Part shown: one piece after another, positions 40,935 through 47,879 of the stretch | Numbering within the stretch: position 1 is the first letter of the stretch | Layout of the letters: every line of letters starts with the position of its first letter | Program-made: the position numbers and the translations under genes | Source: Methanococcoides sp. AM1 | Lineage (GTDB): Archaea; Halobacteriota; Methanosarcinia; Methanosarcinales; Methanosarcinaceae | Assembly (NCBI RefSeq): GCF_900774055.1 | Contig: NZ_CAAGSW010000003.1 | Span: 248,001-312,000, forward strand | Reading direction: 5' to 3' | Length of the DNA stretch: 64,000 bases | The notes under the pieces: generated by a model | What the model was told of the DNA's origin: nothing | Seen by the model: only the letters and a program-made list of their open reading frames with translations | Database searches by the model: none

Positions 40935-41137
40935 AAGTCCTCCTTGATTATTTCTAAATTAACTAAATTTAGGTCAGCATCAATGATATGCATTTTGCCA
41001 ACGACAATCCTGCGAAATTTATTAATAGTTCAGTTGATGATATTTTATTGGGAGTTTGATCGAGTTGTGGCATTTTTGTTTTTTTGAATGCTTATTATAA
41101 TCGACTCGATATGATCATAGCTTTAAGGGGTGCAAAC

Positions 41138-41422
41138 ATGCTGTCAAAAATACCGATCGACTTTTCAAAAGTAGCAGCTGAAGATATCAATAAAGAGATT
41201 CTGAGGCTTGGAATAATTGCTGAACTGGATGCCATAAGTCTCTATGAGCAAATGGCTGCTCTTACAGATAATAATGAAGTAAAACGGGTCCTTCTGGATG
41301 TTGCAAAAGAAGAAAAGACCCATGTAGGTGAGTTTCAGACACTTTTACTGAAAGAAGATGAACAGCAGGACTATGAGCTAAAGATGGGTAAAAAGGAAGT
41401 TGAAGAAAAGCTTGGAAAATAA
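41138..41422 (+). CDS. Half-size EncFtn-like ferritin 1
   Basis: A 94-residue two-helix protein. It starts at the ATG behind AGGGGTG (the open frame extends 18 codons upstream without a ribosome site). Helix 1 has ELDAISLYEQ (E29, Y36, E37), helix 2 has KEEKTH (E59, H62), the metal ligands of encapsulated ferritin-like (EncFtn) and related half-ferritins, which need two subunits for one four-helix di-iron site. The C-terminal tail (about 75-94) is charged. Its partner is the neighbouring paralog 14 bases downstream. It probably stores or oxidises iron. No encapsulin shell gene is in the window and no targeting peptide is clear. Confidence 0.75.
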   Translation: MLSKIPIDFSKVAAEDINKEILRLGIIAELDAISLYEQMAALTDNNEVKRVLLDVAKEEKTHVGEFQTLLLKEDEQQDYELKMGKKEVEEKLGK

Positions 41423-41436
41423 AGGAGGCTCCTGTG

Positions 41437-41706
41437 ATGTTATCAGAAATACCGATTGACCTAGAAACAGTGGACAAGAAAAATATTGATAAGGAACTCA
41501 TGCGACTTTCCATGATAGCTGAACTGGATGCTGTCAACCTTTATGAGCAAATGGCTTCCCTGACCGATGACGAAGAGCTCAGGGCGATACTTCTTGATAT
41601 TGCAAGAGAAGAAATGATCCATGTGGCCATGTTTGAGACGGTGCTGATGGAAGTGGATGATGAATATCTTAAGGTTCTTGCAGAATACTCCCTTGCAAGG
41701 AGCTGA
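41437..41706 (+). CDS. Half-size EncFtn-like ferritin 2
   Basis: An 89-residue paralog of the preceding gene with the same residues in the same register (E29, Y36, E37, E59, H62). The start ATG was chosen because the paralog also begins MLS; a GTG one codon earlier is closer to the ideal distance from the strong AAAGGAGG. The tail is shorter and less charged than in the first copy. Tandem arrangement and matched ligands suggest a heteromer in which each subunit gives half of the iron site. Confidence 0.75.
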   Translation: MLSEIPIDLETVDKKNIDKELMRLSMIAELDAVNLYEQMASLTDDEELRAILLDIAREEMIHVAMFETVLMEVDDEYLKVLAEYSLARS

Positions 41707-43726: not shown

Positions 43727-44335
43727 ATGGACAAAGTGAGGATCAAGCTAAATTCCACAAGAGGTATCGAGCAAATAGTACTTCTTAATAATACAGACCG
43801 GATGAAAGTAATTGAACTTGAGGGGGAGGATGAAAAGGTCAAATCAATTCTTTTCGGTAAAAAGAACAACCTTGGTGTTAAGCAGGTTCTTGATTGTGAT
43901 GTAATGGTAGCTTTCCTGACGAACAAGGAGTTTGGATGGCCGGCTAATAACATCAAATTGATGCATGGTGATAAGATAATAGGCGGAGATGTGACTGATC
44001 CTGTCAAACTTCAGGAATATCAGGAACATTCAGGATACTGTGTTTTTGGAAATATCGTTGTCGAACTTGATAAGTTAGTAAAAAAAGGGTCTTCTGCTGA
44101 TTCTATCTGTATGGTGGTCAATCCGAAACCATTCCCTCACATAAGCCACATCCCGGGTATTTCCGATGCTCTTATGGCTTCTCCTTCCCGGTTTACAGAT
44201 GAATATATAAGGTCAAGGTTGCAGCCTAACAGCAAAAAGGACTGTATTGGTTCTTTCCTTCTGGGATTCAATATTAAAAATCATATTTTTGCAAACCCTG
44301 CAGAGTGTACTTCTGTCAGGGGTAGTGTTTATTGA
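43727..44335 (+). CDS. Conserved-looking protein of unknown function
   Basis: I do not recognise this 202-residue soluble protein. It has a central Gly/Asp-rich stretch (IKLMHGDKIIGGDVTDPVK), a PKPFPHISHIPG segment with two histidines and five spread cysteines. Its ATG is about 25 bases from AGGGGG, too far for a normal ribosome site; an ATT seven codons upstream in frame is at the usual distance. The composition is normal for the genome. It stands alone with a strong hairpin at its end. Confidence 0.5.
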   Translation: MDKVRIKLNSTRGIEQIVLLNNTDRMKVIELEGEDEKVKSILFGKKNNLGVKQVLDCDVMVAFLTNKEFGWPANNIKLMHGDKIIGGDVTDPVKLQEYQEHSGYCVFGNIVVELDKLVKKGSSADSICMVVNPKPFPHISHIPGISDALMASPSRFTDEYIRSRLQPNSKKDCIGSFLLGFNIKNHIFANPAECTSVRGSVY

Positions 44336-44530: not shown

Positions 44531-45286
44531 TCATTCCTCATTTGGTATAACGATGCGGAATCCGTTTAATTCTTCTACGGTTGCTGAAACACCGTATACC
44601 TGTTCTATAGTTTCAGGCACGACTACTTCATGTCCTCCGTGAGCGAAGATCGTCCCGTCCTTCAGGAATATATACCTGTCAGCGAACCGGAGTGCAAGGT
44701 TTATGTCATGCATTGTTATGACAGCAGATACTCTGTTCGCTTTCACGACATGCCTGACCGTACGCAATATCTCCAGTTGTTTCTTAAGGTCAAGACTGCT
44801 GGTCGGTTCATCAAGTAGCAATAGCTTAGGTTCTTGAACTAGTGCTCTTGCTATTGCAACCCGTTGAAGTTCCCCGCCACTCATCTCGTTGATGTACCTG
44901 AGTGCCAGTTCTTTTAGTTCCAGCTTCATTATAATGGATTCAACGATCCTGTGGTCCTTTTCTTTAATGTTCCAGCCAATATGCGGTTTCCTTCCAAGCA
45001 GGATTGCATCATAGGCAGTGAGCCTTCCGGCTTCAGAACGTTGCGGAACGTAACCTATCCTCTTTGCGACCTCATGTTTTTCAAGGGAAAGGACCTCTTC
45101 GCCATCAACAAAGATCGTTCCTGTAGCAGGCGGATGTATTGTATTGATGCATCTGAGAAGTGTTGATTTCCCTACACCGTTTGGTCCGAGAATAGCAAGG
45201 ACTTCCCCTGGTCTTAAGTTGAAGTGGATCTGTTCGAGTACTTTTCTTGTCTTATAATTGAAGCCAAGTCCTTCTACGTTCAACAT
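44531..45286 (-). CDS. ABC importer ATP-binding protein, BtuD/FecE type
   Basis: A 251-residue ATPase of a metal-chelate or cobamide importer. Walker A GPNGVGKST (about 34-42), signature MSGGELQRVAIARAL (about 137-151), Walker B LLLLDEPTSSLD (about 156-167) and an MHDIN histidine switch. The start shares one base with the permease stop. With the permease and binding protein it forms a leftward operon. Cobamide or ferric siderophore are the usual substrates of this class. Which one is not seen here, but cobamide would fit a methylotrophic methanogen. Confidence 0.88.
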   Translation of the reverse strand: MLNVEGLGFNYKTRKVLEQIHFNLRPGEVLAILGPNGVGKSTLLRCINTIHPPATGTIFVDGEEVLSLEKHEVAKRIGYVPQRSEAGRLTAYDAILLGRKPHIGWNIKEKDHRIVESIIMKLELKELALRYINEMSGGELQRVAIARALVQEPKLLLLDEPTSSLDLKKQLEILRTVRHVVKANRVSAVITMHDINLALRFADRYIFLKDGTIFAHGGHEVVVPETIEQVYGVSATVEELNGFRIVIPNEE

Positions 45287-46377
45287 TAGTGCTGATACCC
45301 CCTGATAAGCAGGTAAAGGAATAATGGAGCACCCATAAAAGCGGTCAGTATAGCCACCGGTAGCTCGTGTGGTGCGAGCATAAGACGCGCAGCTGTATCC
45401 GCAGCAAGTAGCAGCAGTCCACCTGTAAGGCAGGATGCCGGCAGGAGAAACCTTTGCTCATCACCCACGAACTTGCGTGCAATATGCGGGCAGACCAGTC
45501 CGACAAAACCGATCACACCTAGAAAAGCAACAACAAAAGCTGTCATCAGGGATGCGACGAGCATACCCCAGAGGCGGACTTTTTCGACGTTAACGCCAAG
45601 TCCTTTGGCAGTTTCATCTCCTGCATCGATGGCATTGTAGTTCCATCGGTTAAGCAGGAAATAGATCAATGAAGGAACAGTGACGGCTGTTAGTATTCCA
45701 AGGTCTCCCCAATCGGCCCGCCCGACGTCCCCGAAGGTCCAGAAAACGACTGCTGCAAGCTGAACATCGTCTGCAAAATACTGAAGGAACATTGTGCCTG
45801 CAGTAAAAAGAGATGCCAGTGCAACCCCTGTGAGGATCATAACTTCCGGGGAGGCATTCCTGTACCTTGCGATAGTAATCAGGATGAATGTTGCTATCAT
45901 GGAGAATAAGAATGCAACTGCTGTTGTCATGTAAGGGTTGTTCAGCATGACCGCATCAGCTCCTGTACTTCTCATAGTACCGCTTCCAAGGACGATTACA
46001 GAGAATGCTGCACCGAATGCGGCGGCATGTGAGATGCCCAGTGTGTAAGGGGAACCAAGCGGGTTTCGCAGGATGGATTGGAGTGCGACACCTGCAACCG
46101 ATAATCCTATACCTGAAACAATGGCTGTCAGTGCTCTTGGAAGACGTATATTCCATATGATGGTGGAAATATTTCCAACATCGTAGCCAAGCAGTGCAGC
46201 CATAACATCTGTAAAAGATATATTTGCTGCACCTACAGCTATGGAATAGCCAAGTAACAGGAACAGAAGGATCGATGAGATTATCATAAAGGAGATCTTC
46301 TTTCTTATGTAACCTGTATATGCCAAAGGAAGTGTATCTCCCTTTAGCTCATCCATTTCACCTTCTATTAGTTCCAT
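45286..46377 (-). CDS. FecCD/BtuC family ABC permease
   Basis: A 363-residue permease with about ten spans. The N-terminal 25 residues are an unusual acidic cytoplasmic extension. Family signatures are RLPRALTAIVSGIGLSVAGV, RNPLGSPYTLGISHAA and, near the end, GVIGFVGLVCPHIARKFVG, the loop that docks the ATPase. It imports a chelate delivered by the lipoprotein encoded 48 bases upstream. Confidence 0.9.
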   Translation of the reverse strand: MELIEGEMDELKGDTLPLAYTGYIRKKISFMIISSILLFLLLGYSIAVGAANISFTDVMAALLGYDVGNISTIIWNIRLPRALTAIVSGIGLSVAGVALQSILRNPLGSPYTLGISHAAAFGAAFSVIVLGSGTMRSTGADAVMLNNPYMTTAVAFLFSMIATFILITIARYRNASPEVMILTGVALASLFTAGTMFLQYFADDVQLAAVVFWTFGDVGRADWGDLGILTAVTVPSLIYFLLNRWNYNAIDAGDETAKGLGVNVEKVRLWGMLVASLMTAFVVAFLGVIGFVGLVCPHIARKFVGDEQRFLLPASCLTGGLLLLAADTAARLMLAPHELPVAILTAFMGAPLFLYLLIRGYQH

Positions 46378-46425
46378 ATATTTCTCCGCTGAACTTTCAG
46401 GACCAGTTCTAAGTTCATTTCTCTT

Positions 46426-47544
46426 TTATTCATTCAGTTCTATCTGTCCGAATCCTGCACTAAATCCGGAGTTCATGGCTTCATAAGCCGGTTCACCAAA
46501 GAGGAATACATAGATCTCGTCTGCTTTTTCAGCAGCATCGATGTTCTGGAACCTGTCAGGATAGATCACCTCGCCTGAGTAGTAAGCGGCAGCAAGTACA
46601 GAACCATGGTTCGTGGTGTACCAGTTGTAAGGCACTACGCCATAGACTTCGCCGTTCTTTACAGCTGTCAGTGAGGTGTAGGCCGGATCAGTTTTCAGCT
46701 CATCTACTGCTGAAGGTGTCGTCTGGTATGTTGAAAGGTCAACAAAAATGATCTCCGGGTCCCATTCAATGATAGCTTCCTTTGACACATCAGCATGTTC
46801 GGTTCCAAGTGATGATGCTACATTCTTTGCATTAATAAGTTCAAATGGCGGGTAGGATGGTTCAGTTGACTGGAACCCATGTGGACCTCTGTATGCTATG
46901 CCGCCAACATAGACGGAAGCCTTTTCTTCTTCAGGGATATCCTCAGTTCTGGAACCAAGGTCTTCGATGGTCATATCGAAGAACTCAATGACCTCTTCTC
47001 CTCTTTCTTCTTTTTCCATTACTTCTGCCATGATACGCAGTGAATGGTACATATCATCGCGATAGACTCCGAGGTCTCCATAATTAAGGGCTATCACAGG
47101 GATCCCTGTCTTTGCCTGAAGTTCATCTGCATCATCAGCTGACTGCACGTATGTCCAGAAGATCACATCAGGATCAACGGCAACGATCTTTTCGGGGTCA
47201 GTGTTTCCCCTGTATTCGCCTATCAGGGGCATGTTCTGGAATTGAGGATTAGCAATAGCATAGGGTCTTCTATTTTCATCTTTTCTCAATTCAATGTCTT
47301 CAACACCAACGACTTTATCCTGAGCACCAAGATAGCAAATATATCTTAGCGCACCGGGTCCCTGGCAGATGATTTTTTCAGGAGCCACAGGGACCGTTAC
47401 TTCTCTTCCAAGACCATCGGTAATGGTTTGCATTTCTACATTATTTACTGCCGACTTCCCGGAACTGGAAACACAACCAGAACCTATGCAGGACAGTATC
47501 ACGAGGAGGATAATTAGTATTCCACTATATGTTTTTAATTTCAT
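46426..47544 (-). CDS. ABC importer substrate-binding lipoprotein, BtuF/FhuD type
   Basis: A 372-residue binding protein of the PeripBP_2 fold. The ATG chosen has GGTGGTG eight bases upstream and gives a signal peptide with the lipobox CIGSGC; an upstream ATG would add 18 residues. The two lobes (about 55-190 and 215-360) have the usual VVGVEDI and PEIIFVDLS strands; the segment YRGPHGFQST is common in archaeal members. It captures the metal chelate or cobamide outside the membrane. It starts the operon. Confidence 0.87.
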   Translation of the reverse strand: MKLKTYSGILIILLVILSCIGSGCVSSSGKSAVNNVEMQTITDGLGREVTVPVAPEKIICQGPGALRYICYLGAQDKVVGVEDIELRKDENRRPYAIANPQFQNMPLIGEYRGNTDPEKIVAVDPDVIFWTYVQSADDADELQAKTGIPVIALNYGDLGVYRDDMYHSLRIMAEVMEKEERGEEVIEFFDMTIEDLGSRTEDIPEEEKASVYVGGIAYRGPHGFQSTEPSYPPFELINAKNVASSLGTEHADVSKEAIIEWDPEIIFVDLSTYQTTPSAVDELKTDPAYTSLTAVKNGEVYGVVPYNWYTTNHGSVLAAAYYSGEVIYPDRFQNIDAAEKADEIYVFLFGEPAYEAMNSGFSAGFGQIELNE

Positions 47545-47879
47545 TCTGTTAGCACCACCGTATGCGATGTTACAAATATTATTCATGCACAGGCCCAAAG
47601 TTTTCGATCTATTTGCAGATATGGCTGCAATTTTTGTCGTTCATGGCTCTATTTATATGATGATTTGTAACAATTCCATGCTATGTTCTAAAATATTTGG
47701 CATATTTATTACTACGAATTTTAATATTTTTAATAATAAATAGCATGTAACTTAAACTTTATGTTAATAGTGTTAACAATGTAAAAATTTGTTAAAAAAT
47801 GAGTATTTTTCAACCCACATTGATTCAAAGGTATCCCCAATCGCATACTTTTTAACATGCTATGTCCTTCTACTAATTA
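47545..47879. promoter_or_regulatory. Divergent promoter region between importer and MarC genes
   Basis: An AT-rich gap serving both directions. TGTTAA-TAGTG-TTAACA (47762-47778) is a perfect inverted repeat of the size of a dimeric repressor site. TAATATTTTTAATAATAAAT near 47722 can act as TATA region. MarC has no ribosome site and may be leaderless. No gene is seen. Confidence 0.4.

Follow-up and report, generated by a model that had tools for sequence, protein, structure and literature searches.

The window, i.e., the whole stretch of 64,000 nucleotides that was analysed, contains on its forward strand two short open reading frames separated by 14 bases, found exactly where the preliminary description had placed them, at 41138-41706. 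Gene A (41138..41422; ATG at 41138, TAA ending at 41422) encodes a 94-aa A-type EncFtn-fold half-ferritin with the ligands E29, Y36, E59, and H62 and the class residues G64-E65. Gene B (41437..41706; ATG at 41437, TGA ending at 41706) encodes an 89-aa B-type EncFtn-fold half-ferritin with the same four ligands, the class residues A64-M65, and a divergent third helix; the two proteins are 54% identical over 76 aa. The 14-base intergenic stretch (41423..41436, forward strand) contains the ribosome site of gene B, GGAGG, and sites of the GGGG/GGAGG type are present 5' of both genes. Longer open reading frames begin at TTG 41084 and, as an alternative start of gene B, at GTG 41434; the ATG starts are favoured over them since they agree with both the ribosome sites and the relatives. 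Judged from the sequence, A and B probably share one transcript. Gene A and the gene of a cupredoxin lipoprotein diverge from an intergenic region (40935..41137) that is conserved in two other Methanococcoides genomes with a mean column identity of 92% and presumably carries the promoters of both these genes. Gene A and gene B are both under purifying selection, with pairwise dN/dS of about 0.05-0.15 for each within Methanococcoides and a close relative, and thus both are working genes.

A and B are EncFtn-fold half-ferritins. Both exceed the cut-off of 27 of the Pfam EncFtn-like family PF22277 (28.0 bits for A, 40.0 bits for B), and for both the top PDB match found with Foldseek is 5n5e, the EncFtn domain of Pyrococcus furiosus (TM 0.84 for A and 0.78 for B), with Rhodospirillum EncFtn, 3k6c, and EncB/EncC among the matches ranked next. 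EncFtn also comes first for both proteins in the sequence search against solved structures. The earlier assignment as EncFtn-like was thereby confirmed. The scores against NCBIfam EncB_fam NF058679 (69.9 and 51.6 bits) and the encapsulin-associated ferritin family TIGR04535 (53.7 and 49.5 bits) lie below the curated cut-offs of 90 and 125, respectively. The AlphaFold models, made for single chains, have a pLDDT of 94.8 for A, with helices at 14-42, 46-73, and 75-92, and of 91.9 for B, with the same three helices and the third starting at 75. Both proteins also pass the cut-off of 22.8 of Pfam Rubrerythrin PF02915 (A 30.4, B 25.5 bits); however, neither is a rubrerythrin, as each chain has three helices and lacks a rubredoxin domain. 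The residues E29, Y36, E59, and H62 stand in the same register in A and B, as had been noticed before, and this holds beyond the window: they are invariant in seven A and seven B relatives and kept, with hardly an exception, across 135 A-like and 46 B-type sequences. According to the published structural description of Rhodospirillum EncFtn, the four equivalent residues, E32, Y39, E62, and H65, coordinate iron (PMC5012862).

The preliminary description had seen no encapsulin near the pair, and the search with the PF04454 profile extends this to the whole genome (2.48 Mb in 46 contigs, 99.9% complete, genus Methanococcoides): no encapsulin gene was found within the window or in the rest of the genome. 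The sole PF04454 match in it also matches a phage major head protein family. A tailed provirus at G000:C5:70000-89999 (L001, L054) encodes this encapsulin/Linocin-family head protein together with tape-measure and minor tail proteins, and the phage head match and these genes downstream identify the protein as a provirus capsid. Phage capsids are known false positives of encapsulin searches (PMC8346489). Family-2 encapsulins are absent from the genome, none of the ten other genus members, three of them single-contig assemblies, has a PF04454 match, and across the order only weak matches were obtained, in 16 of 186 genomes. A C-terminal cargo peptide of the TIGSL type is absent from every A- and B-type protein, those of the window included, and no fusion of A or B to a shell protein was found. 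The tail YSLAR of B was considered as a cargo peptide and rejected: its position is within the third helix or immediately behind it, with no linker, and it is not a TIGSL-type motif. True encapsulin cases were detectable in the survey, as in other archaea of the phylum it found TIGSL-tailed EncFtn immediately ahead of an encapsulin gene, at a distance of 3 bp (L199, L208), and EncFtn fused to encapsulin (L187, L188). The tail in L199 and L208 reads TIGSLK, and many relatives of the same clade, with an MPEF N-terminus, have no tail. Since shell, cargo peptide, and fusion were each sought and none was found, A and B do not form an encapsulin cargo system and are best called a shell-free EncFtn-type ferritin.

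Among the known systems, A and B have their best match, in sequence as in fold, in the P. furiosus EncFtn domain (PFC_05175, PDB 5n5e; fusion-FLP encapsulin 2e0z), which shares their ligands and also the DxxxEExxH pattern that a review names for archaea (PMC11202242). However, in P. furiosus it is the N-terminal domain of a shell protein, whereas A and B are free-standing in a genome without a shell. Rhodospirillum rubrum EncFtn (Rru_A0973, PDB 5da5) and the other targeting-peptide FLPs are likewise three-helix half-ferritins with ferroxidase residues in the same places, but they carry a C-terminal cargo peptide and have an adjacent encapsulin, and A and B have neither. Two EncFtn paralogues of similar fold in one genome are also known from Myxococcus, EncB and EncC (7s5c, 7s8t), although both are described as EncA cargo with targeting peptides (PMC11202242). 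Also comparable are the "Non-EncFtn" group of the 2016 eLife tree and the "s-FLP" class (Nitrosomonas NE0167, PDB 3k6c), short EncFtn-like proteins with no cargo peptide and no linked encapsulin; the passages that mention them give no operon context, function, or archaeal survey (PMC5012862, PMC11202242). The likeness to rubrerythrin lies in the common Pfam signal and the genomic context, and the difference in that A and B lack the single chain with four helices and the rubredoxin domain.

Distribution in Methanosarcinaceae was surveyed in 112 genomes with a B model that separates B (at least 124 bits) from A (at most 114 bits); drafts are among the genomes used in the analysis. Both genes are present in at least 70 of these genomes, adjacent in 35 and unlinked in 35; a handful have only one of them and about 30 have neither. 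Among complete or near-complete genomes, G148 has B only and G150 has A only. In a complete Methanococcoides genome, G091 (L233:850-1560), gene A is broken, having lost the beginning of helix 1 together with E29 and having a shifted frame, and B is intact; in one Methanosarcina-like genome without A (G178, L191), B is split into two frames. The tree of 125 sequences nests B within the A radiation as one clade, supported at 100/100 and set on a long stem; fusion proteins and the TIGSL-tail group fall outside. B is a single-origin paralogue confined to Methanosarcinaceae. Class and clade coincide: residue 65, three beyond H62, is always E in A and always M in B, and G64-E65 of A corresponds to A64-M65 of B. 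In the window pair, 18 of 29 and 12 of 28 positions are conserved in the two helices of the ferroxidase interface and one of 15 in the third helix. In published EncFtn, helices 1 and 2 are described as forming the ferroxidase interface and helix 3 as taking part in the other ring interface (PMC5012862), and thus the greatest change between A and B is on the ring side. A third, distant EncFtn-like class (E about 1e-9) occurs in some Methanolobus-like genomes, including ones without A and B (L207, L209, G112:C2:235862-236110).

Gene A belongs to a broad encapsulin-free clade of anaerobic archaea and bacteria that is hardly described; the literature search found no publication on the exact A/B family and no biochemical or expression data for it. 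In a scan of named genomes, A-type proteins of 62-79% identity were found in Methanophagales, Bathyarchaeota, Hadesarchaea, DPANN, Thermoplasmata, and Helarchaeota, and also in Nitrospirota, Actinomycetota, Patescibacteria, deltaproteobacterial lineages, and others, where single placements may be wrong since many of these genomes are metagenome bins. PF04454 matched in one of 50 A-type carrier genomes, weakly, in Methanolobus. The context of A-type genes outside Methanosarcinaceae is often that of oxidative stress. Of 47 archaeal A-type loci, 19 have a gene for superoxide reductase, the enzyme that makes H2O2, no more than 2 kb away, a count to be read with closely related genomes among the 47 and hence not as that many independent cases; all 19 genes lie on the same strand, and fewer than one linkage would be expected by chance. 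This family-blind search in a phylum sample is the independent test of the stress context. The second comparison, in which oxidative-stress genes make up 22 of 181 open reading frames within 1 kb and 3 of 194 beyond 3 kb of A-type genes (Fisher p 3e-5), is biased upward because its queries were drawn from loci of such kind. In L122, L131, L138, L144, L153, and L174, superoxide reductase is the next gene on the same strand, at distances from a 3 bp overlap to 56 bp; other next genes on the same strand encode rubrerythrin (L131), superoxide dismutase (L178), nitroreductase (L113, L133), and peroxiredoxin. A Thermoplasmata bin (L138:1191-7657) carries a run of nine oxygen-defence genes, for Fur, Hcp, a flavodiiron protein, peroxiredoxin, ferritin, A-type EncFtn, superoxide reductase, a second peroxiredoxin-like protein, and rubrerythrin, and in a Methanolliviera bin (L165:656-2749) a multihaem cytochrome-like gene lies between A-type EncFtn and superoxide reductase.

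No superoxide reductase or peroxiredoxin gene was found alongside the A and B genes of Methanosarcinaceae, and so a stress role is carried over to them from relatives. The window genome has superoxide reductases elsewhere and a classical ferritin gene adjoining one that is AhpD-like, and it has an island encoding two rubrerythrin-like proteins, one flavodiiron-like protein, and one multihaem cytochrome; both the AhpD-like gene and those of the island were assigned by visual reading of the sequence rather than through a family search. The cytochrome of the island (L241:9876-11249) is similar to that of the Methanolliviera bin. EncFtn is described as needing encapsulin to be useful in iron storage. 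With a large, highly conserved EncFtn clade of anaerobes that is shell-free and has genes of superoxide reductase and peroxide defence as neighbours, it becomes possible to test whether the half-ferritin is primarily an oxidant-scavenging ferroxidase later put in shells or an escaped cargo, and Methanosarcina, which is genetically manipulable, has both A and B.

It is proposed, with a probability of about 0.6, that A and B are cytosolic, shell-free ferroxidases for iron and oxidant control; the steps of this mechanism are suggested by the fold, the ligands, and the neighbours. Each chain, a helical hairpin with a third helix, would supply half of a di-iron site, and thus two chains would have to pair to form the ferroxidase centre, probably within a ring such as the EncFtn decamer. 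The cytosolic site would bind Fe2+ and oxidise it, presumably with O2 or H2O2, so that both the oxidant and the free iron available for Fenton chemistry would be removed, and Fe3+ might be passed to the ordinary ferritin of the cell or back to the pool. Shelled systems keep the product inside the shell; as there is none here, the gain is more likely to be the removal of oxidant and reactive Fe2+, with ferritin as the sink. Labour may be divided between A as the general enzyme and B as a family-specific duplicate with the same ligands and with changes in the adjacent residue and the ring-building helix. Against this stand experiments reported for purified Rhodospirillum EncFtn, which could not store iron without the shell and, with ortho-phenylenediamine, showed no peroxidase activity (PMC5012862).

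A serious rival to the ferroxidase reading, although an unlikely one in our judgement, is that A, and with it B, are rubrerythrin-type peroxidases, which would take electrons from rubredoxin, flavodoxin, or a cytochrome to reduce H2O2 without net iron oxidation. The neighbours, among them superoxide reductase, flavodiiron protein, FMN reductase, and multihaem cytochrome, would suit such an enzyme, as would the scores above the Pfam Rubrerythrin cut-off; however, there is no rubredoxin domain, each chain has two ligand-bearing helices only, the best fold and sequence matches are to EncFtn and not to rubrerythrin, and Rhodospirillum EncFtn was inactive as a peroxidase in the one assay reported (PMC5012862). 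Considered as encapsulin cargo after all, within an undetected or viral HK97-fold shell, A and B could draw on the closest structure, 5n5e, being a domain fused to encapsulin, and on the one PF04454 protein of the genome. Yet this protein is a phage head match inside a tailed provirus and other genus members are without it, and cargo peptide, fusion, and family-2 encapsulin are all absent, so that the cargo explanation is strongly disfavoured and its chance is close to negligible.

The preliminary description had taken the pair to point to a heteromer, which the wider survey does not support in this form. A mixed ring (e.g., 5A+5B) in which every A-B interface holds an asymmetric di-iron site, i.e., a split ferritin made from two genes, is considered doubtful. 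Adjacency in 35 genomes and co-retention in at least 70 of 112, even in the 35 where the genes are unlinked, argue for some functional link between A and B; these, the alike ferroxidase-interface helices, the dissimilar third helix, and the strict E/M difference at residue 65 are consistent with a mixed ring, and by geometric inference an alternating A-B ring fits a decamer, whereas five dimers could not complete a ring in which AA and BB alternate. However, A is solitary in most lineages, the genes are unlinked in half of the genomes with both, and some genomes have one intact gene only (G148, G150, G091); for these reasons an obligate heteromer is disfavoured. No A-B fusion protein was found at 80 loci. 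The best tree separates Methanosarcina A from other Methanosarcinaceae A, but a single clade is compatible with the AU test (p 0.26), so that non-monophyly of Methanosarcinaceae A, tried as proof against co-evolution, is suggested by the tree and not upheld by the test. Nor is a partner needed to dispense with a shell, since A-type proteins commonly occur alone and shell-free in many phyla. It is unlikely that the genes encode a two-gene split ferritin in the fullest sense, a shell-free ring whose A-B centres, with E65 and M65 sides, oxidise iron with H2O2 from superoxide reductase in strict anaerobes.

The genes next to the pair encode MtaA, a MerR/GyrI-like regulator, and the plastocyanin-type (cupredoxin) lipoprotein, and the named relatives nearest to the window belong to Methanococcoides. 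The copper lipoprotein and the MerR regulator reported earlier are thus both present, but they are not conserved beyond close relatives, and being local they say little on function. In the survey of Methanosarcinaceae neighbourhoods, A-B adjacency alone was conserved, so that the neighbourhood was dismissed as a guide to what the genes do. It is very improbable that A, B, the cupredoxin lipoprotein, and the MerR/GyrI-like regulator form a copper- or metal-stress module: the genes are adjacent in the window and in genome G095 and the divergent promoter region is conserved, but the MerR gene is not beside the pair in M. vulcani, both it and the cupredoxin gene are missing from the neighbourhood in M. 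seepicolus and other genera, and the cupredoxin gene lies on the opposite strand. On the reverse strand, 3 kb from the pair, a FecCD-type ABC transporter for iron or cobamide uptake (ATPase, permease, and binding protein; 44531-47598) is partly syntenic in close relatives. It is also worth noting that a 202-aa open reading frame at 43727-44335 on the forward strand, with no Pfam or NCBIfam match, is kept in a close relative.
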